Source: a virus | Virus record (IMG/VR): IMGVR_UViG_3300046517_000503 | Coordinates: 1 to 25,403 of that record | Strand: one strand, 5' to 3' | Length of the DNA: 25,403 nt | Part shown: one piece after another, positions 2,375 to 24,203 of the stretch | Numbering within the stretch: the first letter of the stretch is position 1 | Layout: every line of letters begins with the position of its first letter | Position numbers and translations under genes: made by a program | Notes under the pieces: model-generated | What the model was told of the DNA's origin: nothing | Seen by the model: the letters and a program-made list of their open reading frames with translations, nothing else | Databases searched by the model: none

Positions 2375-4138
2375 ATGGCACAGTTACTAAATTTTAATAC
2401 GCCAGACACACGCACTGCTTCAATATTAATTGGAGATCCGGTTCAGGCAACCGCTGGTTCGCCAGACGGTCTGCCCACCATGACAGCTTCAGCTGGCGTA
2501 AACGTCTCTGCCTGTATTGAACTTCAATCAGTTACCTCTGCACTCTTGTTAAGTCGAATGACGACAACGCAGATGAATGCCATTGTTACTCCTTCTAATG
2601 GGATGTTGATTTACAACACCACAACCAATCTCTTAACTGCTTATATAAATGGTGCATGGACCGCCGTTGAATCTGGTGGAGCAGCTCCAACATTTACCAC
2701 TGTAACCAGCGGTTTAGGAACCGCAGCGGCTCCTAGCTACACATTCACAGGTCGTACAGATGTAGGGCTCTATAGTAGCGCTGCACATACACTTGATTTA
2801 ACTGCTAACGGAACTCGTCAAGTATCGATTATAGGTACAGCGGTAGCCGTTGATTACCTGACAATTGCTGGTGGTGCAGCCGCATCAAATACAGTAACGA
2901 TTGCTGCTACTGGTACAGATGCAGCGGTTGGCATTACCTTTACTCCAAAAGGAACCGGAGCGCTTTTAAATGCCGTCGGTGCGGTTGCAACGCCAAGTTA
3001 TGCGTTCACCGGAGATCTGGGTGCTGGCATGTGGCACAGTGCTGCCAATACATTGGACTTCTCTGCTAATGCGGCTAGACAATTACAACTGATTGGAACT
3101 GCCGTTGCCGTTGATTACCTCACAATCACCGGTGGAGCAACTGGAACAAATACCGTAACCATTACCACAGCGGGTACCGATACAAATATTAGTCTCACCT
3201 TAACCCCTAAGGGAACAGGCGCTCTCTTAAATGCTGTAGGAGCTGTTGCAACGCCAAGTTATGCCTTTACCGGAGATGCTGGTAGTGGTATGTGGCAAAG
3301 TGCTGCAAGCGTACTTGATTTTTCTACGACTGGCGTACGTTCATTCCAGATAACAGATACATTATCATCCGTTAACTGGGTATCCGTGACGGGTGGCGCT
3401 ACTGGAACAGGGCTTTCAACCGGTGTTGGATTTACTGCGAATGGTACTGATACGAATATTGATATTAGTGTTACGCCTAAGGGAGCGGGCAACCTCTCTG
3501 TTAGAGGTGCCACCACTGCTGGTTCTATTGCTTTATGGAACCAAGCTAATACGTTCCAAACAATCATTTTAGGTGCGGCAGTTGCTTCAAACCTTACTTG
3601 GACATGGCCTCTTACAGATGCAACGGTTCCAGCGGGCGCTACGACAACCGCGATTCCAATGTCCTCAAACGCTGCTGGTGTTCTCTCATTCTCGAATACT
3701 GGATTAATCTATGCTACCGGCACATTAACCGCCGGCAATATTAACAGCATGTTTACGACCGGTATTCAGTTGATAGCAACCCCTGGTTCTGGAAAAGCGA
3801 TTATTGTTCAAAACTTTATTTTAGAAATTATTGGTGCAACAAGCTTTGCTGCCGGTGGTGTGGTTTACCTTAACTATAGCACCACAGGTCATGGTACTAC
3901 TTTAGCATCACAGATTATGCCGGTAACCGCTGTCACAGCGGCGAGCTCTAATAATACGATTGCCAGCGCATTGGGAATGATTAGTAATACGGTCACTCCA
4001 GCTGCTGAAGGTGTTCAATTGGTTAGTACTTCAGTTGCTAATCAACCTGTTTGCATCACTAACGCCACTCAATTGTTTACAACCGGTACAGGAACAGCTA
4101 ACTGGTATCTTTGGTACATGATTGTTCCAGTAACATAA
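2375..4138 (+). CDS. Tail/head fibre protein with three 87-residue tandem repeats
   Basis: A 587-residue fibre-type protein, very rich in Thr, Ala, Gly and Ser. Residues about 1-100 hold a module (SPDGLPTM, then LLLSRMTTTQMNAI and YNTTTNLLTAYINGAW) that recurs in two other fibres of this window and is probably the virion attachment end. Three tandem repeats start at residues 120, 207 and 294, each opening with PSYxFTG and closing near TPKGxG, so the period is exactly 87 residues (261 bp). They probably build the shaft of a trimeric fibre. The C-terminal 200 residues (starting about LTWTWPLTDA) form a different domain, likely the distal tip. AAGGGG lies eight bases before the ATG. Its place next to the capsid gene leaves open whether it is a head or a tail fibre. 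Confidence 0.75.
   Translation: MAQLLNFNTPDTRTASILIGDPVQATAGSPDGLPTMTASAGVNVSACIELQSVTSALLLSRMTTTQMNAIVTPSNGMLIYNTTTNLLTAYINGAWTAVESGGAAPTFTTVTSGLGTAAAPSYTFTGRTDVGLYSSAAHTLDLTANGTRQVSIIGTAVAVDYLTIAGGAAASNTVTIAATGTDAAVGITFTPKGTGALLNAVGAVATPSYAFTGDLGAGMWHSAANTLDFSANAARQLQLIGTAVAVDYLTITGGATGTNTVTITTAGTDTNISLTLTPKGTGALLNAVGAVATPSYAFTGDAGSGMWQSAASVLDFSTTGVRSFQITDTLSSVNWVSVTGGATGTGLSTGVGFTANGTDTNIDISVTPKGAGNLSVRGATTAGSIALWNQANTFQTIILGAAVASNLTWTWPLTDATVPAGATTTAIPMSSNAAGVLSFSNTGLIYATGTLTAGNINSMFTTGIQLIATPGSGKAIIVQNFILEIIGATSFAAGGVVYLNYSTTGHGTTLASQIMPVTAVTAASSNNTIASALGMISNTVTPAAEGVQLVSTSVANQPVCITNATQLFTTGTGTANWYLWYMIVPVT
2732..3514 (+). repeat. Three in-frame 261-bp tandem repeats within the fibre gene
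   Basis: Repeat units begin at 2732, 2993 and 3254, spaced by exactly 261 bases. Near-identical DNA (GTTGCAACGCCAAGTTATG) opens units two and three, while unit one is more diverged. Each unit encodes PSYxFTG, xGMW or xGLY, LDF/LDL, TITGGA-like and TPKGxG motifs. Homologous recombination between units could lengthen or shorten the fibre in frame. Confidence 0.7.
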
Positions 4139-5406: not shown

Positions 5407-6462
5407 GTGACTACATCTGGTACCTATGCATTCTCCTCACCACAAAGTGTTGAGTTAATCGAAGACGCTTTTGAGCGTATAGGTATTCCTAGTTCTCTTC
5501 TTGAAGGCCAAAAGATAAATGCAGCTAAGCGATCGCTTAATTTCATATTAAGTGATTTAGTCAATAAAGGCTTAAACCTCTGGACTGTTCAACAGTTCAT
5601 GTTAAACCTAGTCCCTAATCAAGCCTCTTATACGATGCCACCTAATACGATTCGTGTATTAGAAGCAACCATCAGACAATCTCAACGCAATCTTGGCGGT
5701 ACTCCATTTACCTCTGCGGGGGGTAATGCGGCTAATGCTTTTGATAATAATCCAGCGACGGCTTGCACTCAAACGGCCCCTAATGGATATATCAGTTATA
5801 ACTGGAATACCGCTTCTTATACGATTGCGCTCGTGGGTGTTCAATCTAATGCGACATTAACGTATACGCTGGTATTTGAATACTCTAATGACAATGTGAA
5901 TTGGTTCCAAGTGGGTTCTGCTCCGGCTCAAACCTATACGGTTGGTCTTATTACGTGGTTTGTTGTAACAACACCCACTAACGGAGCGTTATTTAGAGTT
6001 CGTGAGACGGGTGGGTCGACGTTGAATGTTCAGGAGCTTTTTTTTAATACAGCTCTCACTGATTGGATTATCACTCCATTGTCTCGTTCTGAATATGTGT
6101 CTTTGCAGTATAAGAATCAGACGGGGCGTCCTACGAGCTTCTATTTAGATAGACAGATAGTGCCTATTTTGAACGTATGGCCTGTGCCAACCCCTCAATA
6201 CAATAATTTGTATTTTACGGCGACTCAAGCGATTCAAGACATTGGGCAGTTGACGAATAATCCTCAGGTACCGGCCAGGTTCTTAGAATCTATTACTGCG
6301 ATATTGGCATATAACTTAGCCGTAAAATATAGCTTGCCTATGGACAAGATTCAGATGTTAAAAGCATTAGCAGATCAAGTAATGAGTGCTGCTAGCAAGT
6401 CAGACATTGAGAAGGTACCGCTTAGAATTTACGGAAACTATCAAGGATGGTCTGACGTATGA
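5407..6462 (+). CDS. Tail adaptor / head-tail connector with inserted discoidin-like domain
   Basis: A 351-residue protein. Residues 1-91 (SPQSVELIEDAFERIGI, FILSDLVNKGLNLWTVQQ, PPNTIRVLEA) and residues about 217-351 (PLSRSEYVSLQYKNQTGRP, DRQIVPILNVWPVP, FLESITAILAYNLAVKY) together form a continuous adaptor of the type that joins portal to tail in podoviruses (P22 gp4-like role). Residues about 92-215 interrupt it with a beta domain carrying AFDNNPATAC, a YTLVFEYSNDNVNWFQVG strand pair and ALFRVRETG, a pattern like F5/8 C (discoidin) modules. The start codon is GTG, chosen because AGAAGGA precedes it closely and the ATG at 5397 is out of frame and opens only a very short frame. The stop overlaps the next start (ATGA). 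The adaptor call is fairly firm; the discoidin call is moderate. Confidence 0.72.
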   Translation: MTTSGTYAFSSPQSVELIEDAFERIGIPSSLLEGQKINAAKRSLNFILSDLVNKGLNLWTVQQFMLNLVPNQASYTMPPNTIRVLEATIRQSQRNLGGTPFTSAGGNAANAFDNNPATACTQTAPNGYISYNWNTASYTIALVGVQSNATLTYTLVFEYSNDNVNWFQVGSAPAQTYTVGLITWFVVTTPTNGALFRVRETGGSTLNVQELFFNTALTDWIITPLSRSEYVSLQYKNQTGRPTSFYLDRQIVPILNVWPVPTPQYNNLYFTATQAIQDIGQLTNNPQVPARFLESITAILAYNLAVKYSLPMDKIQMLKALADQVMSAASKSDIEKVPLRIYGNYQGWSDV

Positions 6463-6872
6463 CGTGGCGTCCGCATGGCAAACATGTACAAATTGACCCG
6501 AGCTCTCCGAGAGGCCTTGGAATCTGTGATTACACAGGTTTTGTGCATATGCATAAGGATTTGGTACGTCAGATGGAATGGCGTGGAAACGCTTTGATTT
6601 GGACGGGACTTTATGTAGGGAAAGATTATGCAGATAAGCCTAATGAGCAGAATAGGCCGCCTATATTGCCACCAGACCCGGTTCCCTTCCTATTCCCTCG
6701 TCCTCAGCAGACAACCAATATTACTTGGAGTTCAGGTCTTGGATTGCCTTGGAATCAATTGAATGAATATACCTGGGGAACTTGGGGAACCATTATTGAT
6801 GGTGCTCCGGCACCTAATGGAAACATAAGGCTTCAAAATTTGCAACAGACTAATTTTATGGGTACAACATGA
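6459..6872 (+). CDS. Conserved tail-region protein, degenerate zinc-ribbon type
   Basis: A 137-residue protein that starts inside the adaptor stop (ATGA) with AAGGATG upstream, so it is translationally coupled. It resembles a small protein found next to adaptor genes in many podovirus-like phages, whose usual pattern is CDxCGF, a helix, then CxxC and DKPNPQxRP, ILPPDPVP. Here the backbone is retained (GICDYTGFVHMHKDLVRQMEW, DKPNEQNRPPILPPDPVPF), but only one of the expected four cysteines remains, so zinc is probably not bound. The C-terminal third is a W/N/G-rich tail (WGTWGTIIDGAPAPNGN). A structural role in the connector is inferred from neighbours. Confidence 0.6.
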   Translation: MTWRPHGKHVQIDPSSPRGLGICDYTGFVHMHKDLVRQMEWRGNALIWTGLYVGKDYADKPNEQNRPPILPPDPVPFLFPRPQQTTNITWSSGLGLPWNQLNEYTWGTWGTIIDGAPAPNGNIRLQNLQQTNFMGTT

Positions 6873-7228
6873 CAAATTTAGTTCTTAAAGACCCAGAGCA
6901 AACCTTTGGGGACGTAATAACTCTTACCAATAATGGTCAAGGGCTAACTCCTGCTCTCTCTAATGTTCAAGACGGTCTTGGTAATAATAGCACCATGCAA
7001 TTAGCAACGACTTCCGTGAACTTTAATCGATCCGGCGCTAATACTTTTCAATTAGATGGGACTGCTGTAACAGCCCCTGTCGTCAGTATTAATTCTATGT
7101 GCGCAACAGTACCGACATTATTACCTTTAACGGCAGACCCCGCAGGCGCAAACGGCATGATTTATTACAACACAGCCACTAATCATATACGAGTTTACGT
7201 AAATGGTTCTTGGCAGACTTTACTATAG
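6869..7228 (+). CDS. Short fibre-like protein
   Basis: A 119-residue Asn/Thr/Leu-rich protein beginning at an ATGA overlap with the previous stop. It combines an N-terminal stretch (GDVITLTNNGQGLTPALSN, TTSVNFNRSGANTFQLDG) with a C-terminal module (GANGMIYYNTATNHIRVYVNGSW) that matches the YNTTxxxxxxYxxGxW module in the N-terminal parts of the fibres at 2375, 7238 and 9175. It looks like a minimal fibre or an anchor piece without a shaft or tip. A base-plate-like socket protein for the longer fibres is possible but inferred. Confidence 0.6.
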   Translation: MTNLVLKDPEQTFGDVITLTNNGQGLTPALSNVQDGLGNNSTMQLATTSVNFNRSGANTFQLDGTAVTAPVVSINSMCATVPTLLPLTADPAGANGMIYYNTATNHIRVYVNGSWQTLL

Positions 7229-7237
7229 GAAAATATT

Positions 7238-9175
7238 ATGGCAATTAATTTAATTTCTGGCGGAGTAGTTCCAACAGCCTTCCTTATCGGAGACTATGGT
7301 CAAGCGCCTGGTGGCTCTCCTGATTCAGTAGCCACCATAACGCAAGCAGGCGGAAAAGCCGTCTCTGCTGGATTAGAAATCCAATCAGTTCTTGGTGGAT
7401 TGTTATTGCCTCGCATGACAACGACCCAACGTAATGCCTTAAATGCAACGAATGGGTTGATGGTTTACAACACAACCAGCGATACCTTCGATGTCTATCA
7501 AGCAGCCGCTTGGACTCAAATTACTAATACATTTGATACCGCTCAGTTCATATTAGGTACTGCAAATGCGACATTCCCTAGCGCTCAAAGTTTAGGCGCT
7601 CTTACAACAGGGCTTTTAAAGAATACCGTATCCGTAAGCGTCGGTACATTAAGCAAAGCCGTTGCCGGAACGGATTATTATTCGCCCGGTAATCCCACAA
7701 CAATCATTGATACAGGAAGCACCCCAACAACTGACAACCTCTTTGTTGGTACATCTTGCGGTAATATTTCTGCTACTGGAATTCAAAACACGGCCCTTGG
7801 TGTCAACTGCTTAACCGGAATCACTTCTGGAAATAATAACGTATGCATTGGATATCAAGCCGGAATTTCTATTCTTGGGGTCAGCAATAATGTTTTAATC
7901 GGAACGCAAGCGGGGAAAAATGTTGTTAGTCCTGCAAACGTATTAATTGGTTATCAATCTGGGGAATTAATAGCTAACATCGGTGGTGGAAACGTAGGCG
8001 TTGGATATCAATCATTGGTATTAGCAACGAGCGCTCTGGATACAGTCGCTATAGGAGGAAGCGCTGGCGCCCTTCAAACAACCTATACTAATTGCACATT
8101 TATCGGGGTTGGCACTGATGCTTCTGTGAACAATCTTACAAATGCGTCAGCCATTGGGGCTTTTGCGTCTGTCGCCATCAGTAACGCAATGGTGTTGGGG
8201 AATAATGTCAATGTGGGAATAGGAACCTCTTCGCCTTCAGAATTTTTACACGTTTCTGGTGGTAATATTAGAATCGACAGCGCCAACTCCTTAAAGCTTT
8301 TTAATGCTGCGAGTACTTTTTTCTCTGCCCTTAAGAGCGCTAATGTTGGTTCAAACATTACCTGGACATTACCATTAACAGATTCTGCGAATTATCTGAA
8401 ATCAGATGGTGCGGGAACACTTTCTTTTGGAGCCATAACAACCTTAAGCACAGTAAGTGGCGTTGCTCCCTTCTCTGGTGTGATAGCAAACTATGCATCA
8501 ACCTATACTACTGGAACAGCTAGCCAATCAACGACCACCATTACGGGATCTGGCACGACATTTACAGTCGCAATGGTAGGAGGCGTCATTGTATTTGCTA
8601 ATGGCACTTATGGGTTCATTACTGCCTTCGGAACTACGACATCGCTTACGGTCGACAGTTCCCAAACTGAAGCGGGTCAGGCCTATACGATTTATTACAA
8701 CGGTCTTATCTCTGACAATCTAGGAAATGCGGGTGCTAACAACTTGTACTTCAACGGAAATGGTATTGCCTCTTATGTTCCAGCACCGCTCAACTACTAT
8801 GAGACAGCCGTATTAAGTGGTAACTGGACAGGGCCTGTCACTGTTGCTGGCAATGTGTATCTTACGAGAGTTGGAAACGTTGTCACTGCGAGAATTCAGA
8901 AGGTAAGCGGAACGAGCGGCAGCACTACCATGTGGACGTTTGGTGTTCTCGTTCCGGCAAGATTTTTGCCCACAACAAATGCGAATGGAGATTTATTCTT
9001 TCCCTATGTGGCTTCTTTGAATGCCGTTATATCAATATCGGTCATACGTCTTTACACTCAAACCGCAACGATTGGAACGTTGATCGCAAGTTATGGGTCT
9101 AATGATCTTGGTAATTTTACTAGCGGCCAAGCATCGGTTATTGAAGAATCTGCGATTTCATGGGTGGTTCAATAA
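7238..9175 (+). CDS. Long tail fibre A with YadA-like beta-roll and variable tip
   Basis: A 645-residue fibre. Residues 1-95 are the shared attachment module (SPDSVATI, GGLLLPRMTTTQRNALN, YNTTSDTFDVYQAAAW). Residues about 185-325 hold short repeats of the form NVxIGxxAG (NVCIGYQAG, NVLIGTQAG, NVLIGYQSG, DTVAIGGSAG), the pattern of left-handed beta-roll heads of YadA-type trimeric adhesins. NVGIGTSSPSEFLHVSGG (about 325-342) is a common fibre connector. Residues 411-522 form a conserved shaft region, and the last 120 residues (YLTRVGNVVTARI, FGVLVPARFLP) a beta-sandwich tip, probably receptor binding. AGGA precedes the ATG. The stop overlaps the next fibre's start by one base. No intramolecular chaperone domain is seen. 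Confidence 0.8.
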   Translation: MAINLISGGVVPTAFLIGDYGQAPGGSPDSVATITQAGGKAVSAGLEIQSVLGGLLLPRMTTTQRNALNATNGLMVYNTTSDTFDVYQAAAWTQITNTFDTAQFILGTANATFPSAQSLGALTTGLLKNTVSVSVGTLSKAVAGTDYYSPGNPTTIIDTGSTPTTDNLFVGTSCGNISATGIQNTALGVNCLTGITSGNNNVCIGYQAGISILGVSNNVLIGTQAGKNVVSPANVLIGYQSGELIANIGGGNVGVGYQSLVLATSALDTVAIGGSAGALQTTYTNCTFIGVGTDASVNNLTNASAIGAFASVAISNAMVLGNNVNVGIGTSSPSEFLHVSGGNIRIDSANSLKLFNAASTFFSALKSANVGSNITWTLPLTDSANYLKSDGAGTLSFGAITTLSTVSGVAPFSGVIANYASTYTTGTASQSTTTITGSGTTFTVAMVGGVIVFANGTYGFITAFGTTTSLTVDSSQTEAGQAYTIYYNGLISDNLGNAGANNLYFNGNGIASYVPAPLNYYETAVLSGNWTGPVTVAGNVYLTRVGNVVTARIQKVSGTSGSTTMWTFGVLVPARFLPTTNANGDLFFPYVASLNAVISISVIRLYTQTATIGTLIASYGSNDLGNFTSGQASVIEESAISWVVQ

Positions 9176-11136
9176 TGGCTATTAATTTAGTTTCATACGG
9201 AATAGAAAATACTGCGTTCTTAGTTGTTGACGCTGGTCAAGCACCGCGTGGTTCTCCAGATAGTCTTCCAACCCTAACGATTGTAGGCGGAAAACCTGTA
9301 TCAGCCGCTTTAGAGATTCAATCAACGTTAGGCGGGCTATTGATTCCCAGAATGACAACGACTCAAAGAAATGCATTGAATGTCGTTAATGGGTTCATGA
9401 TTTACAATAAATCAACCGATACATTTGATATCTATCAAGCGGGTTCTTGGAGTTCTATTAGTGATGCAGCGCTTGATACTTCTGCTCAGTTCATATTAGC
9501 AACCGCGAATGTCTTATTTACGAATGCTCAAAGTATTGGAGCGTTGACGACTGGTCTTCTTAAAAATACGGTATCTTTATCTACCGGGACCTTATCGACC
9601 GCTGTCGCTGGAACGGACTATTATTCTCCTGGTAATCCGACTACGATTCTCGACGATCATACTAGGCATAACTTATTCGTTGGAACGTCATGCGGTAATA
9701 GCTCGGAGTCTGGGAATCAGTGCGTTGGGCTTGGAATCAATACTTTAACCGGATTAACATCTGCTGTTTCAAACGTTGGCATTGGCTATCAGGCTGGTGT
9801 TTTTATACATGCCGCTAGTAATAATGTTTTGCTTGGTACTCAGACGGGAAATCAGAATGTAACATCCACATCTGCAGATCATGTATTTATTGGATATCAA
9901 AGCGGAAAGCTCGCTGGTAGTTCTGCGCTTTTCAGCGTCGGCATAGGATATCAAACTTTTGTATCATCTACATTTCCAAATAGTTGTGTTGCGATAGGAT
10001 GGAGCGCTGGCGCCCTCCAAACAAATTATCAACTCTGTACATTTGCCGGGACTGACGCAGATGCTTCAGCTTCTTCATTGACCCATACAACTGCTATCGG
10101 AAATGGCGCATCTGTTGCCATTAGTACTGCGTTAGTGTTAGGCAATGGCTCTATTAACGTAGGGATAGGTACGAGTTCGCCCGCGGAATATCTACACGTT
10201 TCTGGTGGTAATATCCTCATAGATCCAGCGGGCAATAACGGCATCGGTCTGAAATTATATAATGCTGGGAATACCAATTACTCTCAACTAATAAGCGCCG
10301 CTGTTGCATCCAATATTACCTGGACATTACCCATAGCAGATGCAGCGTTTGCATTACATTCTGATGGATCTGGAACACTTAATTTCCAAACCCCAACATT
10401 AGGAACCATTACAGGACTTGCCGCATTCTCTGGCGAGATAGCAAATTATGGTTCTAATTATGCCGCTGGGAACGCAAGTCAATCTACAACGACTGTTACC
10501 GGCTCAGGTACGACATTCACAACAGCAATGGTAGGAGGTTTAATAGTATTCTCAAACGGCTCCTATGGATTCATAACAGCCTTTGGAAGCACAACCTCAT
10601 TAACCGTCGATACTTCTCAGACCGTTACCTTGCAATCCTATATCATTTATTACAATGGATTGATATCAGATAACCTTGGGAACGCGGGCGCTAATAATCT
10701 TTACTTCTCAGGTAATGGTATAGCGTCTTATGTTCCAGCACCATTGAATTATTATGAGACAGTTACTTTAACAGCGAGTTGGACCGGCCCTCGTACAGTA
10801 ACAAATCAGACTATTTATTTAACTCGTATTGGTAATGTTGTGACAATGCGTATTTCGGTAGTCGATAATATCGCCGCCAATGCGACTGCTCCCTGGGTTT
10901 TTGGTTCTGTTATACCCGCAAGATTTATACCAGCCAATCCGATTGGGGATTTGTATATGGTATATAACTCTGTTTCTACCGGCTTCAATAGATTAAGCAT
11001 TATGACGATAAATTTTGTTACAGGTCCTGTCGGAACGATTACCGCTTATACGGGGAATACGGGCCTTGCTAGTTTTCAGAGTGGCGATAACCCTATCAAG
11101 ATAGATGAATATGGAATTTCATGGACGTTAGGATAA
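9175..11136 (+). CDS. Long tail fibre B, paralogue of fibre A
   Basis: A 653-residue fibre with the same order of parts as its left neighbour: attachment module (GGLLIPRMTTTQRNALN), beta-roll repeats (NVGIGYQAG, NVLLGTQTG, HVFIGYQSG), NVGIGTSSPAEYLHVSGG, a shaft, and a tip (YLTRIGNVVTMRI, FGSVIPARFIP). Shaft residues such as NGLISDNLGNAGANNLYF are identical between the two, whereas the tips differ strongly. The ATG at 9175 (TAATG overlap with the previous stop) is preferred over the in-frame ATG at 9160 because it begins MAINL like the paralogue. Synonymous sites in shared stretches are widely different, so the duplication is old or was exchanged from another phage. Receptor binding is the inferred job of the tip. 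Confidence 0.8.
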   Translation: MAINLVSYGIENTAFLVVDAGQAPRGSPDSLPTLTIVGGKPVSAALEIQSTLGGLLIPRMTTTQRNALNVVNGFMIYNKSTDTFDIYQAGSWSSISDAALDTSAQFILATANVLFTNAQSIGALTTGLLKNTVSLSTGTLSTAVAGTDYYSPGNPTTILDDHTRHNLFVGTSCGNSSESGNQCVGLGINTLTGLTSAVSNVGIGYQAGVFIHAASNNVLLGTQTGNQNVTSTSADHVFIGYQSGKLAGSSALFSVGIGYQTFVSSTFPNSCVAIGWSAGALQTNYQLCTFAGTDADASASSLTHTTAIGNGASVAISTALVLGNGSINVGIGTSSPAEYLHVSGGNILIDPAGNNGIGLKLYNAGNTNYSQLISAAVASNITWTLPIADAAFALHSDGSGTLNFQTPTLGTITGLAAFSGEIANYGSNYAAGNASQSTTTVTGSGTTFTTAMVGGLIVFSNGSYGFITAFGSTTSLTVDTSQTVTLQSYIIYYNGLISDNLGNAGANNLYFSGNGIASYVPAPLNYYETVTLTASWTGPRTVTNQTIYLTRIGNVVTMRISVVDNIAANATAPWVFGSVIPARFIPANPIGDLYMVYNSVSTGFNRLSIMTINFVTGPVGTITAYTGNTGLASFQSGDNPIKIDEYGISWTLG

Positions 11137-11140
11137 GTAT

Positions 11141-11785
11141 ATGGTAATGACATATAACTCGTTAGTTCAGCAGGTTCAAGATGAGCTTGATAGATACGAT
11201 ACGCTATTTGTATCCTACATTCCTAATTTGATTTATCAAGCAACAGACCGAATCAATGCCGATTTAAAAAATATTGGATTGGAACAATATGTCACCGGTA
11301 CTTTTATTGCTAATGCTATTAACGGGGGTTCTGTTATTCCAAAGCCTGCTAGATGGAGAAGAACCATAACTTTTAATTATGGAACAGGTGTTGGAAATAA
11401 TGTTGTCACTCCCATACTGCTTAGAACGTATGAGTTTTGTCGTAATTATTCACCGAATGCATCCGTATCAGCCCCACCCCTTTATTATGCAGATTATGGG
11501 TTTTACAACTATTTAATTGTGCCAACACCAGACCAGGCTTATCCATTTGAATTGGCCTATTTAGAAGTCCCGGAGACTATCACAGCGAATGTTCAAACCA
11601 ACTGGATTACGAACTATGCACCGAGTCTTTATTTGTATGCAGTGTTATTAGAGGCGGTTATTTATTTGAACTTTCCAGAGCGTATCCCTTCAATGCAAGC
11701 TGAATACGAGAAACGATTGGCTCCATTAGCGGCTCAAGACCAGGAAAGAAAGCTCGACCGCGAAACCAGTATAAGGGCGGATTAG
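11141..11785 (+). CDS. Second tail adaptor-like structural protein
   Basis: A 214-residue protein with an N-terminal helical part (MTYNSLVQQVQDELDRYDTLFVSYIPNLIYQATDRINADLK) and a C-terminal helical part (APSLYLYAVLLEAVIYLNFPERIPSMQAEYEKRLAPLAAQDQERK) around a beta middle with a W-R-R-T-I-T-F strand. This layout matches ring-forming adaptor proteins that link the portal to the tail in podovirus-like phages. AGGA lies seven bases before the ATG at 11141; a second ATG two codons on is less well placed. It lies between the fibres and the gp10-like nozzle gene, with one base between its stop and the next start, which supports a tail-machine role. The exact family is not recognised. Confidence 0.65.
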   Translation: MVMTYNSLVQQVQDELDRYDTLFVSYIPNLIYQATDRINADLKNIGLEQYVTGTFIANAINGGSVIPKPARWRRTITFNYGTGVGNNVVTPILLRTYEFCRNYSPNASVSAPPLYYADYGFYNYLIVPTPDQAYPFELAYLEVPETITANVQTNWITNYAPSLYLYAVLLEAVIYLNFPERIPSMQAEYEKRLAPLAAQDQERKLDRETSIRAD

Positions 11786-11786
11786 T

Positions 11787-13322
11787 ATGTCGACTCCTCA
11801 AGATAAAGTCTTTGCTCTTCACTTCGCCCCTGGGATACAGAGGGATGGTACGGGATTTTCCAGTCAATATTGGACGGATGGACAATGGGTTCGGTTCTGG
11901 GCAGATGGTAGTGGGGTCCCAAAACCAAGGAAAATGGGAGGATATGCTCAGTTAACAACGATTGATAATATTGCTCGTGGTAGCTATGTTCAGCCTAATC
12001 CGCCTAATTTTAATGTTTATATTGGTGACCAGGATGAGTTGTTTTATATCCCGATAGATCAGTTCGGAACCGCCCTCGGTCCAGAAGTGGGCAGAACTCC
12101 TGCCTTATATATCCCTAATGTCAATAATGATTGGCAGTTTGATACCATGTATTCAACCATTAATAATTCCAGCATATTAGTAGCTTTTGCTGCCCCAAAT
12201 CTCGCTTCTGTTGCAAGCAATGTGGATGCAGCAGTTTATTACGGAGATTCTCTTGCTAATACGCCTCTCATTCCAACCGGATTTAATGTATCAGGGGGTA
12301 TAGTCGTATTGTCTCCATTTTTAGTGATGTATGGAAATGATGGGAATATTATAGTATCGAATCCTAACGATCCAACCACTGAATTCTTCACCGCCAGAGT
12401 CACAAACTCTAAAATTGTCTTTGGATTGCCAGTTAGAGCCGGTAACTCAAGCCCCGCCGGTCTATTTTGGAGCTTAGATAGCCTTATCCGTATGACTTTC
12501 GTGGGGGGAACTGAGATATTCAATTTTGATACCGTAACCGCAGAAAGCTCTATTCTCTCTAGCAGAGGAATTATTGAATACGATAATGAATACTTTTGGG
12601 CAGGGATTGATCGATTCTTATTTTATAATGGTGTGGTTCAAGAATTACCCAATGATAAATCCTTAGACTTTTTCTTTGCAAATGTGAATTATGCACAACG
12701 TCAAAAAGTATGGGCAACAAAAGTAACGAGCGCTGGTGAGATTTGGTGGTTTTTCCCAACCGGTAATAACGTAGAGTGCAATCATGCGGTTATCTATAAT
12801 AGACGTCTTAAGTGTTGGTATGACACAGCGATTAATAGAAGTGATGGTTATTTTGACCAAACCTTTGCAAGTCCTATCTGGACCGATAATGTGGCATCAG
12901 GGGGTGAATATCCTGTTTGGATCCACGAAACCGGTGTAGACCAAAACGTCGGAAACGTCCTAACCGCCATCGATTCCTTCATTCAAAGCGGAGATATCGC
13001 CTATTGCGCTAATGGCCCCGGCGGTCAACGCATCGGCCTTGATAGATGGGTCTATCTGACCCGAGTCGAACCCGACTTCCTCCAAGATGAGAACTTAACT
13101 TTAACAGTGACAGGCCGAGATTATGCAATCTCAAATCCCGCTGTTTCTACTCAGAATCCCTATGTAATTACACCTACAACAGTCAAGGTAGATATGAGAG
13201 AGCAGGCTCGAGAGATGAGGCTTAAGTTTGAGAGTAATGCCATTGGTGGCGATTACTTTATGGGACAAGTGCTTTTGGTAGCAAGGATTGGGGATGGTAG
13301 ACAAAGTGGTACAAGTCCTTAG
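11787..13322 (+). CDS. P22 gp10-like tail nozzle / packaged-DNA stabilisation protein
   Basis: A 511-residue beta-rich protein. The N-terminus carries FAPGIQRDGTGFSSQYWTDGQWVRF and KMGGY, which is the usual opening of P22 gp10-type proteins. The centre has beta-propeller-like blades, with the characteristic SSRGIIEYDNEYFWAGIDR and FLFYNGVVQEL strands (about residues 257-290) and FFANVNYAQRQKVWATK. The C-terminus ends in a beta domain (VKVDMREQAREMRLKFES, GDYFMGQVLL). In P22 this hexameric protein plugs the end of the adaptor ring and holds packaged DNA in the head. Length is close to that family. AAGGGCGG precedes the start. A perfect 10-bp hairpin follows the stop. The call is by motif pattern, not alignment. 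Confidence 0.8.
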   Translation: MSTPQDKVFALHFAPGIQRDGTGFSSQYWTDGQWVRFWADGSGVPKPRKMGGYAQLTTIDNIARGSYVQPNPPNFNVYIGDQDELFYIPIDQFGTALGPEVGRTPALYIPNVNNDWQFDTMYSTINNSSILVAFAAPNLASVASNVDAAVYYGDSLANTPLIPTGFNVSGGIVVLSPFLVMYGNDGNIIVSNPNDPTTEFFTARVTNSKIVFGLPVRAGNSSPAGLFWSLDSLIRMTFVGGTEIFNFDTVTAESSILSSRGIIEYDNEYFWAGIDRFLFYNGVVQELPNDKSLDFFFANVNYAQRQKVWATKVTSAGEIWWFFPTGNNVECNHAVIYNRRLKCWYDTAINRSDGYFDQTFASPIWTDNVASGGEYPVWIHETGVDQNVGNVLTAIDSFIQSGDIAYCANGPGGQRIGLDRWVYLTRVEPDFLQDENLTLTVTGRDYAISNPAVSTQNPYVITPTTVKVDMREQAREMRLKFESNAIGGDYFMGQVLLVARIGDGRQSGTSP

Positions 13323-18874: not shown

Positions 18875-21528
18875 CGAATTTTGATGATTTGAACAATCAA
18901 ATAGCCCGAGAGCTTTCACAAAGTAATAGCTTTAAATCGTCTGAGTCTGATATCAATACAGAAATTGCCAAAGAGTTATTAGATTCAGAACGTAAACCGT
19001 CTCAAAAAAAATCGGCAGGAGAACCTCCTATTAGTCGCTTTATTAAAGAGGGATTAATTTCTGGTGCTATTAATGTCGTTGATTTACCTCAAGATATAAT
19101 TTCATTAGTGGGAGAGTTGCCGCTTGTTCCTAAGGTTGAATTACCGAGAGCCGCTCCCTATATAAAAAAGGGTTTAAAGCATTTAGGGGTAGAATTAGAT
19201 ACAGAGCCTAAAACATTTCAGCAGAAAGCCGCACGTCATGGATCTGAATTTGGCGCAGGCATGATAACGTCTGGTAGTCTTGGTAATTTAATGAAGCTAG
19301 TTGGAATGGCAAAACAAATTCCAGGATTAGTGAATGTTTCTAAATTATTTGGGAATCCTTCTGGCGCTAAAGAGCTTGCAAAAATGGGTGCATTAGGTTC
19401 TGGAATAGGAACGATAGCGGCAGGCGCAGAGGAATTAGGAGCCACTCCATTAGGGGCTAATATAGGGGCAGCGGTTGGTTTACCGCTATCTATGGCGGCT
19501 TCGAGATATGGTGCAAAGAAGGTTGGTAAAGGATTAGGAACTGTATTTTCAAAGAAGTATAGAGAATCTGCGCAAAAAGGAGCGGTTAATAAAGAGGTGG
19601 GTGAATATTTAAGATCTGTGGTTGGAGAAGAAAACATTCCTAAGGTTTTAGAGAAACTATCGGAAACTGAAGAGCTTATTCCAGGCTATAAAGGAACCGT
19701 TGCTGAGAAAACAGGAAATGTGGGCCTCGCGCAATTAGAAAGAGCCAAAAGGGGTCATTATGCCCCTATTTCAGAACAAAAAGCTCTAGATCAAGCATCT
19801 ATCCAAGAAGCCATGGAAAAATTAGCCCCAACAGAACATGGTTTATTTGAAACAAAAGAGAGCATAGGAGAATTGGAAAGAGGACTTGAATCGAAAGCAC
19901 GTGAAGCTGCGGAAGAATTTTCACATAGGGTTACTCCCAAAGAAGCGGGAGAGGAAATTAGAAAGACAGTTTCAGAGAAATTGGGTAAACATGAAGCTGA
20001 AAGAGAACGTGTGACAAAACCTCTTTATGAAGCGGTTGAAAAGTCTAAGGAACGTATTGCTCCTTCAAAAACAGAATCACTTATTGAAAAGAAAATGGAG
20101 ATAGCGCGAAAAGGATCTAAGCTTAGGAATCATTTAGAAAAAATAAAGAATATGCTTCCGACTAATATAATGTATGAGCCGACCGCACAAGAAGCAAAGG
20201 AAATGATTTCAAGCGGAGAATATAAAAAGTTTACAGGTAAGAAAATGACCATCCCTGAAGGGAAGCATCCTTTACCTCAAGAGGTAAATCAGACTATTAA
20301 GGAAATAGATAATTATATTGGAAGCGCTAAGTCTTCTGGTGAAAATGAGCTTGCGAGAGAATTGCAGGAAGTAAAAAATGCAGTCTTAGAAGATTTAGAA
20401 TCTGTTCCCATAGTTAAAGAAGCTCGCGCCGCTTATCATGAATATTCTAAGCCAATCAGTGAAATAACTGAACATAGAACAATAGGGAAAATTGTTAAAA
20501 GAGATAAATATAATAAGGAATATACTATTGGGGAAGCAGAAATACCCAATACGATTATTAATAAATCGATGGGTTCTATTAAAGATGCTGACGACTTATT
20601 GTCGCAGATTGGGCATGAGAAAAAGACTGTTAAATCCGTTGAGGGATACATTAACAATGAAATATTAAATGATGTCACAGATGCCTTTGGAAATGTAGAT
20701 GTTAAGAGGCTTGAGTCCTGGAAGAGAAAGAATCCAGGAGCATTTAAGATATATCCTCATTTAGATACGAAATTAAAGAATCTACAAAATGCGCAAGGAT
20801 TGGTGAACCATGCGAAAGTTCAAGGAATGAAAGAGACCGATTCTTATTTCAAAGGAGCATTTAAGGCATTTACTGGAGAAGATCTAAACCAATATGTTCC
20901 TAAATTACTGCAAGGTCCACATAGAATAGAGAAAGTCAGGGAAGCTGTTAAGCTCGTGAAAGAAACGGGTTCTGATGCAGCCATGGAAGGATTAAGACGA
21001 GGATTTGTAAATGATATCAATAATTCTATTGGACTATCCTCTATTGGAGCAAAGGGGGTAAATAATATTAGTTACGATGCTTATAGAAAATATTTGACTC
21101 AAAATAAGGGAGCTTTAAAGGAAGTATTTAATAGAGATCAAATGGATATCCTTGACAGAATGGAAAAAGTGTTGAAGAGAAGAACATTTGCGGAAACAGG
21201 TGGTGGCGCTATAGGATCTCCAACCGCCTCTAACGCCGTTATATTGGATGCCGCCTCTGGAATGACAGCGACAGCATTAAAATGGGCTGTGGGTAATATC
21301 TGGGGCGGTCAAAAGATTTTGGATTTCTTAGGTAAATTGCATAATAAAGTAAAGATAGATGCAAGAAATGAACTTATTAATAGAGCTCTATTGGAACCAG
21401 AGACTGCAAAGTTTCTCTTAACACCTCTCAAGGAAAAAGGACTAGCAGAGAAAATAAAGGAATTTACTACCAATAAATCTTATATGCTCGTTCCAATTTT
21501 ATCATCCAAGGAGGAAGAAAATGAGTAA
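18871..21528 (+). CDS. Large internal virion / DNA-ejection protein
   Basis: An 885-residue protein, the largest in the window. An N-terminal acidic stretch (1-60) is followed by a hydrophobic, Gly/Ala-rich region (about 65-220, with GALGSGIGTIAAGAEELG and ANIGAAVGLPLSMAAS) that may contact membrane. A long Lys/Glu-rich helical body (about 230-740) and a C-terminal Ala/Gly-rich segment (AASGMTATALKWAVGNIWGG, about 790-810) complete it. No lysozyme or transglycosylase motif is visible, unlike T7 gp16. Size, position after three other internal proteins and composition support an ejection protein that forms a conduit for DNA; this is inference. The start overlaps the previous stop by ATGA, and AAGGAGG for the next gene lies within its 3' end. 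Confidence 0.6.
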   Translation: MTNFDDLNNQIARELSQSNSFKSSESDINTEIAKELLDSERKPSQKKSAGEPPISRFIKEGLISGAINVVDLPQDIISLVGELPLVPKVELPRAAPYIKKGLKHLGVELDTEPKTFQQKAARHGSEFGAGMITSGSLGNLMKLVGMAKQIPGLVNVSKLFGNPSGAKELAKMGALGSGIGTIAAGAEELGATPLGANIGAAVGLPLSMAASRYGAKKVGKGLGTVFSKKYRESAQKGAVNKEVGEYLRSVVGEENIPKVLEKLSETEELIPGYKGTVAEKTGNVGLAQLERAKRGHYAPISEQKALDQASIQEAMEKLAPTEHGLFETKESIGELERGLESKAREAAEEFSHRVTPKEAGEEIRKTVSEKLGKHEAERERVTKPLYEAVEKSKERIAPSKTESLIEKKMEIARKGSKLRNHLEKIKNMLPTNIMYEPTAQEAKEMISSGEYKKFTGKKMTIPEGKHPLPQEVNQTIKEIDNYIGSAKSSGENELARELQEVKNAVLEDLESVPIVKEARAAYHEYSKPISEITEHRTIGKIVKRDKYNKEYTIGEAEIPNTIINKSMGSIKDADDLLSQIGHEKKTVKSVEGYINNEILNDVTDAFGNVDVKRLESWKRKNPGAFKIYPHLDTKLKNLQNAQGLVNHAKVQGMKETDSYFKGAFKAFTGEDLNQYVPKLLQGPHRIEKVREAVKLVKETGSDAAMEGLRRGFVNDINNSIGLSSIGAKGVNNISYDAYRKYLTQNKGALKEVFNRDQMDILDRMEKVLKRRTFAETGGGAIGSPTASNAVILDAASGMTATALKWAVGNIWGGQKILDFLGKLHNKVKIDARNELINRALLEPETAKFLLTPLKEKGLAEKIKEFTTNKSYMLVPILSSKEEENE

Positions 21529-23974
21529 TTACACTAATATTTTTGGTGGTGCTGTCATCAGTACTTCCAATACCTCTGGGATAGAATTAGCCTTAACCGG
21601 AAACATCACGTTGAGCTGGCCAACCCAGTTCCAGGATGTAAATACCACTGTCAATAGCATCATGGATGTCACGGCAAGTGGTGTATTTAACATTACAATG
21701 CCAGATGCTACTCAGGCCAGCACTTTCCAGACTATATTATTCAATAACGTAGGAGGTGTTAATACCTTTCATGTGCTGAATAATGGAGGAGGAACGCTTT
21801 TAACATTAACCGCAGGACAATCTAGCTTGCTATGGTTATATGATAACTCTACGGTTAATGGTTCTTGGAGAACCTCTCCTTTCGGAGCAGGGGGTCCAAC
21901 GGTTACCTCTATTGCTGCAACTTCTTCTAGTACAGATTTAACAATCACGGGTTCCCCCATCACCTCTGCTGGAACGCTGACCTTTGGATTGGCTCAAGAT
22001 TTAGCTTCTCTCACAGGATTTGTAAATTCAACAGGAATTGCCGCTCGTACAGCCGCCAATACTTGGGCATTAAGGACTCTTACAGGTACTGCTAATCAAA
22101 TAGCCGTCACCAATGGGACTGGGGTTGCTGGAAATCCAACGCTTGCGCTTGCTGCAACCATTACGGGTATTACTTCCCTTACCGCCGGGCATATAGTCAT
22201 CAGTGCCAATACGATTGGTACTACGAATGCTGGAACCATTACATTAGGAGATGTCTTGGTTATACCAGAAATCTATGGTGTTCAATTTGATGCGACGAAC
22301 GGAACAAACTTCAATCTATTAGTCTCTGGGAATCAATCTTTCAATCAGAGCTATATATGGCCAACAACGGCCCCAATTGGTGGGCAAGTACTACAGTATG
22401 GAGGAGCCTCTGCTCTTCAATGGGCTACCATCACCACATTCGGTGGTCCAAGCACAACGAACGCTATCGCCAAATATACTAACATTACCGGTAGTCTTGG
22501 AAACTCTGGTGTCTTGATAGATGCCTCCAATAATGTAACAGGAGTTAATTCTCTTGCAGCAGCGAACATTGATATCGGGGTTTCTGGGGCAAATATATTA
22601 TCCACAGTGACGGGCGTCTTAAGTATCATTCCCTCTGGTTCCAATAATGTTCAAATAGGGGTTGCTAGCGGTGTCCCCAATAATTTAATATTAATGAATG
22701 GTTCCGCCCTTATTTTAAATGAACCCGCCAGCTCTGGAACCAACTTCAGCTCGTTTATACAACCTGCATTAAGTTCTAACATAAATTACTCACTCCCTGT
22801 CATTGGTCCCGGGGTTGGTAATACTCTAAGAACCATCGGAACCGTAGCCTCTCCGATATTAGAATGGAGCGACTCAGTCGATAATCCTAACTTCCTAATC
22901 AATGGAAGTATGTCTGTTTGGCAACGAGGAACATCTTTTACAAACTCTACATTCTTTGTAAACAACAATAACGTTTATACCGCTGACTGTTGGAAGCTAC
23001 AATCGAATGGAAATAATGTTGTCTCTGTCTCTCGTGATACAGGACCTATTAACTTAGTTGCTAGTTGTCCTTATTCCTGGAAAGCAACGGTTGTCGCTGC
23101 TAATACAAAGTTTGGAGTTGCTCAGTTTATTGAGTATAAAGATACGCAAAGTATTAATGGATTTGTTACATCGCTTGGATTTAGCGCTAAAGCCTCTGGT
23201 ATTACAAACTTAAGAGCTTCCTTAATCCAATGGTCTGGAACAGCCGATGTGCCAACCAGTAATATTGTGAGTGCTTGGAATGGCTCTGGAACCAATCCAA
23301 CATTGGCTGCTAATTGGACCTATGTTCCGTTGGCAACTGGCTCTCTGGTTAATATTCCCGTCACCACTTCTTTTGCTAATTACACTACCAATCCAGACGG
23401 CTTGCATTATTTTAGTATCCCAACCGGTGGCACTAATAATCTTGCTGTATTCATATGGGTTGACGATACAACAATCGCTATGAATTCAACCTTGAATTTA
23501 AGTGCCCTTAAGTTAGAGCAGGGAGAATATTCTACTCGATTTATAGCATCCCTTTTCCCAGAAGAGTTAAGAAATAGTAAGAGAATTTTCTTACAAGATT
23601 TACCGTATGGAACCTCAACAGGTACAGCAACCTTTCCAGCCACTCCCACAACCCCTGTTGTCGGAGAATCCGGTTGTTACTGGCCCGTGACAACTACCAT
23701 TCTTACGGGAGTGGCCTATGCCCGCATTGATTTTGAGGTTGAGATGAGGACAACCCCTACGTTAGTTACTTATCCCTATACCACGACGACTAATACCAAT
23801 AGATGGTCAGATAATACGGGTACTGATTTAGCGGCCTTATCTGCTTCAATCTATGCATTAGATAGTAAAGGGGCATTGATTTATAACAACATAACAGCGG
23901 CAGGCACTATAACGACGGCTGGGAATAGTACCCTTATTGGACATTGGTATGCAGATTCAGGATTTAATTCATAA
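21521..23974 (+). CDS. Receptor-binding tail fibre with carbohydrate-binding-like C-terminal domain
   Basis: An 817-residue Thr/Ser/Asn/Gly-rich fibre that starts eight bases inside the previous gene, behind a strong AAGGAGG. It lacks the MTTTQRNAL attachment module of the other fibres, so it is anchored differently. The shaft (about 150-450) includes GTANQIAVTNGTGVAGNPTL, a common tail-fibre motif. Residues from about 454 carry NPNFLINGSMSVWQRGTSF and YTADCWKL, the opening of a beta-sandwich domain found at fibre ends of many phages and prophages, thought to bind surface carbohydrate. The last 130 residues form another beta region with STLIGHWYADSGFN at the end. It is the likely main host-range determinant. 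The call rests on motif pattern; host receptor unknown. Confidence 0.78.
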   Translation: MSNYTNIFGGAVISTSNTSGIELALTGNITLSWPTQFQDVNTTVNSIMDVTASGVFNITMPDATQASTFQTILFNNVGGVNTFHVLNNGGGTLLTLTAGQSSLLWLYDNSTVNGSWRTSPFGAGGPTVTSIAATSSSTDLTITGSPITSAGTLTFGLAQDLASLTGFVNSTGIAARTAANTWALRTLTGTANQIAVTNGTGVAGNPTLALAATITGITSLTAGHIVISANTIGTTNAGTITLGDVLVIPEIYGVQFDATNGTNFNLLVSGNQSFNQSYIWPTTAPIGGQVLQYGGASALQWATITTFGGPSTTNAIAKYTNITGSLGNSGVLIDASNNVTGVNSLAAANIDIGVSGANILSTVTGVLSIIPSGSNNVQIGVASGVPNNLILMNGSALILNEPASSGTNFSSFIQPALSSNINYSLPVIGPGVGNTLRTIGTVASPILEWSDSVDNPNFLINGSMSVWQRGTSFTNSTFFVNNNNVYTADCWKLQSNGNNVVSVSRDTGPINLVASCPYSWKATVVAANTKFGVAQFIEYKDTQSINGFVTSLGFSAKASGITNLRASLIQWSGTADVPTSNIVSAWNGSGTNPTLAANWTYVPLATGSLVNIPVTTSFANYTTNPDGLHYFSIPTGGTNNLAVFIWVDDTTIAMNSTLNLSALKLEQGEYSTRFIASLFPEELRNSKRIFLQDLPYGTSTGTATFPATPTTPVVGESGCYWPVTTTILTGVAYARIDFEVEMRTTPTLVTYPYTTTTNTNRWSDNTGTDLAALSASIYALDSKGALIYNNITAAGTITTAGNSTLIGHWYADSGFNS

Positions 23975-23987
23975 AGGATTTAAGGAC

Positions 23988-24203
23988 ATGTTAATTTTAA
24001 ATAGATATGCAGGACAATCTATTACGATATATTTGGAAGATGGTCGTGAGATAGATATCAAGGTTTTAGATATTATTGGTAAAAACAATAAGTTTGCAAA
24101 GATAGGGATTGATGCTGCGAAGAGTATCAAGATTATCAGAGATGAGCTTATTACACAAGAGATGCAAGATGATATTTCCGTGCTTTCTGTTCTTTCTGGT
24201 TAA
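23988..24203 (+). CDS. csrA: CsrA/RsmA-family RNA-binding regulator, phage-encoded
   Basis: A 71-residue CsrA homologue. The start (MLILNRYAGQSI) matches the CsrA N-terminal strand and keeps Arg6. IGIDAAKSIKIIRDELI lines up with IGVNAPKEVAVHREEI of E. coli CsrA and keeps the second RNA-contact residue as Arg51 (E. coli Arg44). A small insertion (YLEDGREI) lies between the first strands, and about ten extra residues follow at the C-terminus. CsrA dimers bind GGA motifs in mRNA leaders and block or protect messages. The ATG at 23988 is chosen because it gives the exact family N-terminus; an in-frame ATG at 23937 lies inside the fibre gene and is rejected. Two GGA motifs (23976-23978 and 23984-23986) overlap its own ribosome site, which may allow self-control. 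It follows the fibre stop by 13 bases and would be cotranscribed with the late genes. Confidence 0.88.
   Translation: MLILNRYAGQSITIYLEDGREIDIKVLDIIGKNNKFAKIGIDAAKSIKIIRDELITQEMQDDISVLSVLSG

Follow-up and report, generated by a model that had tools for sequence, protein, structure and literature searches.

Here, we describe two adjacent genes, designated fibre A and fibre B, in an IMG/VR virus record of 25,403 bases (the window, denoted W in comparisons with relatives), together with their parts and neighbours (Table 1). The two are paralogues that are homologous along their full length, with 403 of 640 aligned residues identical (63%), which bears out the tandem paralogous fibres proposed in an initial annotation of this DNA. 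The stop codon of A and the start codon of B are joined as a TAATG overlap, through which the two may be co-translated; the start of B that is homologous to that of A is the ATG at 9175, yielding 653 amino acids, and the mechanical open reading frame start is at 9160. The same stretch is present on two further IMG/VR contigs (54,134 and 20,658 bases), each differing from W at a single position of the aligned part and at none within A or B. An assembly artefact is unlikely given the presence of the pair in these contigs, though they may derive from one population rather than from separate phages. The names shaft and tip express the probable nature of parts of A and B, and the repeats of the repeat-rich region in A suggest a shaft. 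By eye, these repeats have what we take to be a YadA-head-like look; no Pfam model was found for the A shaft at E up to 10.

Divergence between A and B is non-uniform, but follows a mosaic rather than a two-part profile of shaft and tip. The best single break in identity falls at aligned pair 549 of 640, with 0.68 before it and 0.33 after it (the last 91 aligned residues), a contrast that none of 2000 block permutations attained; uniform divergence therefore does not hold. The boundary of the tip (residue 525) was set after this profile had been seen, which favours the contrast between stalk (residues 1-524) and tip. Outside the neck and tip, most parts are 58-78% identical (N-terminal domain 65/97, a 16-residue linker 9/16, the 74-residue module 57/74; remaining blocks in Table 1), and the nearly identical shaft of the initial annotation is therefore found in the 34-residue neck only (32/34). 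The example quoted in the initial annotation, NGLISDNLGNAGANNLYF, has the same protein sequence in A and B despite changes at 16 of 54 nucleotides; it is located at the border of this neck, taking in neck residues and those immediately before them. The last 120 residues do differ clearly, as first noted (48/120 identical), but are still clearly homologous, with 31/60 identical in the first half of the tip and change heaviest in the second half (17/60).

At synonymous sites, A and B are near saturation throughout both genes, including the many differences initially seen in the shaft. The proportion of synonymous differences (pS) by the Nei-Gojobori method (NG86) is about 0.5-0.8 in every window of the alignment, and 130 of 215 fourfold sites differ, with a saturation (unrelated-site) level of about 0.72. 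Eight backbone genes, summed, of W and its relative L012 differ at 420 of 695 fourfold sites. From these two values, the A/B duplication would be about as old as the split of W and L012, both divergences lying near the resolving limit of these sites; the suggested old duplication is thus supported by sequence comparison. Protein that is kept while synonymous sites are near-saturated also agrees with the strong constraint proposed for the region before the tip.

L012 carries a single fibre, C (931 amino acids), between the same neighbours as A and B. Alignment columns in which two of the three proteins agree and one differs split 101 (AB|C), 47 (AC|B) and 32 (BC|A) in residues 98-524, and 15, 19 and 16, respectively, in the tip (Fisher test, p 0.0016 for residues 1-524 against the tip; 0.023 without module and neck). 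Amino-acid branch lengths are 0.16 for A, 0.26 for B and 0.51 for C in residues 1-524, and 0.46, 0.59 and 0.47 in the tip, and proportional branch lengths for stalk and tip are rejected under WAG, LG and WAG+G4 (p 0.001-0.002). These comparisons, which rest on three sequences, indicate that A and B pair with each other against C in the stalk but not in the tip, and that both A and B, unlike C, evolved faster in the tip than in the stalk. Strict orthology of C is not clear-cut: it differs at 122/182 fourfold sites from A and at 123/171 from B, above the 420/695 of the backbone genes.

A star-like pattern in the tip beside a grouped pattern in the stalk could also result if tips or stalks of A and B had been swapped or homogenised by recombination, such that tip and stalk differ in age. 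Fibre modules do move: the 74-residue module is inserted in the L012 homologue (L012:10001-11746, residues 104-179) of a virion structural gene of the window (11787-13322), which itself is without it, and the inserted copy resembles the modules of A (47/74) and B (48/74) more than that of the fibre of L012 itself (35/75). Fourfold differences, however, are equal in the tip (15/25) and in the N-terminal domain plus shaft (115/190, two rows summed), which speaks against a recent conversion or swap, although sites so close to saturation say little about older events. Nor is a recent conversion limited to the shaft supported. We regard such an exchange as unlikely, if still among the stronger of the alternatives.

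AlphaFold models of both tips are all beta except for a three-residue helical turn, with eight strands in A (mean predicted local distance difference test, pLDDT, 58.3; predicted template-modelling score, pTM, 0.55) and seven in B (52.5; 0.49). The first-ranked Foldseek match of the A tip is the mouse adenovirus 2 fibre head (8.3e-04), with 2 chains at E up to 0.001; that of the B tip is reovirus sigma1 (4.7e-05), with 19 such chains. Re-alignment with VIA, which covers Foldseek matches only, gave a best Z of 9.0 over 117 residues at 3.2 A for the A tip (mouse adenovirus 2 fibre, 5nc1), where most rows have a Z of 7 to 8, a range that carries the tool's warning of chance likeness; for the B tip the top rows have a Z of 11.8, with reovirus sigma1 (4gu3, chain C) aligned over 122 residues at 2.6 A. 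For both tips, 50 of 50 among the matches listed are adenovirus fibre, reovirus sigma1 or sigmaC, lactococcal or listerial phage receptor-binding protein (RBP) heads, or virophage Zav_19. Both tips are therefore predicted to be knob-type viral heads (C-terminal beta-barrel/double Greek-key), in agreement with the initial view of the tip as the receptor-binding part. The models are of monomers, and A and B may well form trimers. That the two tips share one predicted fold and are not new domains goes halfway against the initial annotation, yet 60% of tip residues differ. These differences are unevenly spread, with 23/42 identical in the first four predicted strands of the A tip and 12/39 in the last four, lowest in strands 5 (2/9) and 6 (1/10). 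No clear contrast is seen between strands (35/81) and loops (15/43), nor in the tip between hydrophobic and polar positions (24/50 and 26/73 identical; p 0.19). The hydrophobic pattern is kept between A and B at 93 of 124 tip positions, a value reached by 0 of 5000 shuffles.

Sequence searches returned few relatives. Fibre A had no match by tblastn in 50,697 phage records, where the tips, at E up to 10, had only matches of partial cover with E of 1 to 9. Pfam gave none for the tips, N-terminal domain, shaft or module, and PHROGs gave weak matches for the tips only (best 0.0017). A scan of viral contigs with the tips found only L012 and the two further contigs that carry the A-B pair. A host search in genome contigs gave none for the head protein and two weak metagenome-assembled matches for adaptor 1.

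Table 1. Coordinates of fibres A and B, their parts and neighbouring genes in the window.
Feature	Coordinates	Strand	Basis or remark
Third protein with fibre N-terminal domain	2375..4138	+	Immediately follows the gene for the major head protein
SU10-type adaptor gene 1	5407..6462	+	PF24175, 3.7e-06, 28 bits, just above cut-off of 27
Small conserved gene before fibres	6869..7228	+	Fused to first fibre in L016 and L112
Fibre A, 645 amino acids	7238..9175	+	Open reading frame; paralogue of B; L012 has a single fibre at the same place
A N-terminal domain, residues 1-97	7238..7528	+	Profile of 12 seeds; common to B, the 2375-4138 protein and fibres of related phages
A linker, repeat-rich beta shaft and following block, residues 98-400	7529..8437	+	A-B identity 49/63, 93/160 and 50/76
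A 74-residue module, residues 417-490	8486..8707	+	Also inserted in another virion gene of L012
A neck, residues 491-524	8708..8809	+	32/34 identical to B
A tip, residues 525-645, predicted knob-type head	8810..9172	+	A-B profile, structure model
Fibre B, 653 amino acids	9175..11136	+	ATG at 9175 overlaps A stop (TAATG)
B N-terminal domain, residues 1-97	9175..9465	+	Profile
B copy of 74-residue module	10441..10662	+	57/74 identical to A
B neck	10663..10764	+	32/34 identical to A
B tip, predicted knob-type head	10765..11133	+	A-B profile, structure model
SU10-type adaptor gene 2	11141..11785	+	PF24175, 1.2e-19, 72 bits, above cut-off

Genes in this part of the window are ordered as major head protein, the 2375-4138 protein, adaptor 1, two conserved genes for 137 and 119 amino acids, A, B, adaptor 2 and a virion structural gene. 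Three proteins of W (A, B and the 2375-4138 protein) have a common N-terminal domain, with profile matches of 2e-41, 2.6e-42 and 4.7e-38, respectively, all three being also seeds of the profile; an independent BLASTP comparison of the 2375-4138 protein with A gave 1.2e-17. In A and B this is likely a mounting domain. A protein of the 2375-4138 type after the head gene is kept in most of the relatives inspected for gene order (part of a set of 79 loci), with two in tandem in L025, where this pair with the N-terminal domain lies before adaptor 1 (one in other members) and is 47% identical over 243 columns. The C-terminal part of the 2375-4138 protein shows no likeness evident by eye to the gene after the head protein in L104 (annotated as a cement protein) or in L103 and L105 (annotated as hypothetical).

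The region from the 137-amino-acid gene to adaptor 2 was inspected in 13 contigs that contain both (W, L004, L012, L016, L019, L024, L025, L026, L029 and L031, together with L112, L118 and L120 from a further set of 18 loci, 7 of which were inspected). The number of fibre-size reading frames in this region varies: L025, L029 and L031 lack them, L012 has one, W and L016 have two each, and the others have more or a mixture. Tandem fibres sharing the N-terminal domain recur in relatives: besides W, adjacent pairs in which each gene starts with this domain are found in L118 and, on contigs whose available sequence gave no adaptor 2, in L113 and L116. The pairs of L113, L116 and L118 are alike at the start or in part of the shaft only, and among the relatives inspected W alone has a full-length collinear fibre pair. 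At L016:7992-12005 and L112:2717-5767, the first fibre and the small gene that precedes it form a single fused gene, and two more tandem paralogues (296 and 290 amino acids, 27% identical) follow the fibre pair of L118 at L118:6128-7900. Elsewhere in the window, 21521-23974 encodes another fibre-like protein, which matches tail fibre family phrog_4492 (7.1e-19) in its C-terminal half, and 23937-24203 encodes a CsrA-like protein (PF02599, 45.6 bits, cut-off 27).

We favour, with a probability of roughly 0.65, the reading that A and B are receptor-binding fibres derived from a tandem duplication, built on the same mount, shaft, neck and knob-type head, whose heads have diverged towards two specificities. 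One fibre gene would have been duplicated in tandem in a phage with two SU10-type adaptor genes; both copies would have kept the N-terminal mounting domain, the repeat-rich shaft and the neck, and would end in the same knob-type head; and the heads would then have diverged, most likely such that one virion (or alternative virions) binds two receptors or two forms of one. The placement of A and B between the two adaptor genes favours this reading and a probable location at the tail, and the divergence of the tips may be adaptive, directed at distinct receptors. Several points weigh against it. There is no sign of positive selection in the tip, where average dN/dS (omega, the ratio of nonsynonymous to synonymous change) is below 1 with synonymous sites near saturation. 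The tip models are of modest confidence, as their pLDDT and pTM values above indicate, and both were built from the same three sequences, so that a shared fold is partly built in. The knob fold is also without a sequence match in searches of solved-structure sequences, and relaxed constraint on the heads would fit as well.

The common N-terminal domain can also be read as that of head fibres or capsid decorations, since the 2375-4138 protein that carries it directly follows the major head protein gene in W and relatives. A and B themselves, however, lie between two SU10-type adaptor genes in a conserved order, and we think an attachment to the head improbable. Relaxed constraint, in which one or both tips would drift after duplication as part of a redundant fibre and no second specificity would arise, appears somewhat less probable again. 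It is consistent with the lack of a sign of positive selection and with L012 and L004, which manage with one fibre gene bearing this N-terminal domain. The dN/dS profile along the genes, proposed initially as a check, shows the tip evolving faster than the rest, at an omega about three times as high, but still below 1 on average; NG86 omega is 0.5-0.9 in tip windows, and codon-model values are about 0.07-0.12 for the tip as against 0.025-0.033 for the preceding part, the latter model being unreliable because its branch lengths reached or came close to the limit. Against drift, both tips keep an open frame, shared conserved residues and the hydrophobic pattern described above, and the faster change affects A as well as B.

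A heterotrimeric or bispecific fibre set was raised by the initial annotation. A and B would then co-assemble by way of the near-identical neck, so that a single fibre bears both kinds of head, which we consider very unlikely. In its favour, 18 of the 34 neck codons have changed synonymously (14 are identical and 2 alter the protein), the C neck matches those of A and B at only 14/33 and 15/33, and the stop-start overlap would favour joint production. Against it, the beta-repeat shaft, only 58% identical, disfavours mixing, the neck is explained equally by a mount or chaperone common to both fibres, and the C neck may have been replaced. Just as doubtful is the further step that A and B are obligate partners in such trimers, joined by the almost invariant neck, with both contacts needed in an AND-type host recognition.

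If the favoured reading of two diverged receptor-binding fibres is correct, W would show a phage gaining a second specificity while the mount is kept, and would add two more predicted phage heads of the knob fold of adenovirus, reovirus and lactophage proteins. It offers a clean within-genome fibre duplication together with a single-fibre relative (L012) for comparison, in a fibre clade without a relative in the annotated phage collection searched. In known systems, the RBPs of lactococcal phages (TP901-1, Tuc2009, p2) and gp15 of Listeria phage PSA have at the C-terminus the knob-type head that is predicted for A and B. According to PMC7291167, Tuc2009 and TP901-1 have stem and neck in common but differ in the head, and the lactococcal and listerial heads, though not similar in sequence to sigma1 or to the head of the adenovirus fibre, have the same fold as these. 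Tuc2009 and TP901-1 are two versions in two phages, whereas A and B lie in one genome, and the searches made of solved structures found no sequence similarity to the lactococcal and listerial RBPs. Two fibre proteins per virus are described in PMC8156859 for human adenoviruses HAdV-F40 and HAdV-F41, aviadenoviruses and lizard adenovirus LAdV-2, whose heads have the fold predicted for A and B; these are eukaryotic viruses with fibres at the capsid vertex, of unequal lengths in HAdV-F40 and HAdV-F41, and the likeness is in predicted fold and arrangement only. Among phages, PMC11414711 describes the tailspike proteins of Ackermannviridae as several receptor-binding proteins per phage with conserved N-terminal domains. 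Those recognise polysaccharides and form a branched tailspike complex, whereas A and B resemble each other from end to end. Paired fibres for two targets are a familiar viral strategy, to which W adds a probable case from a poorly known phage clade.

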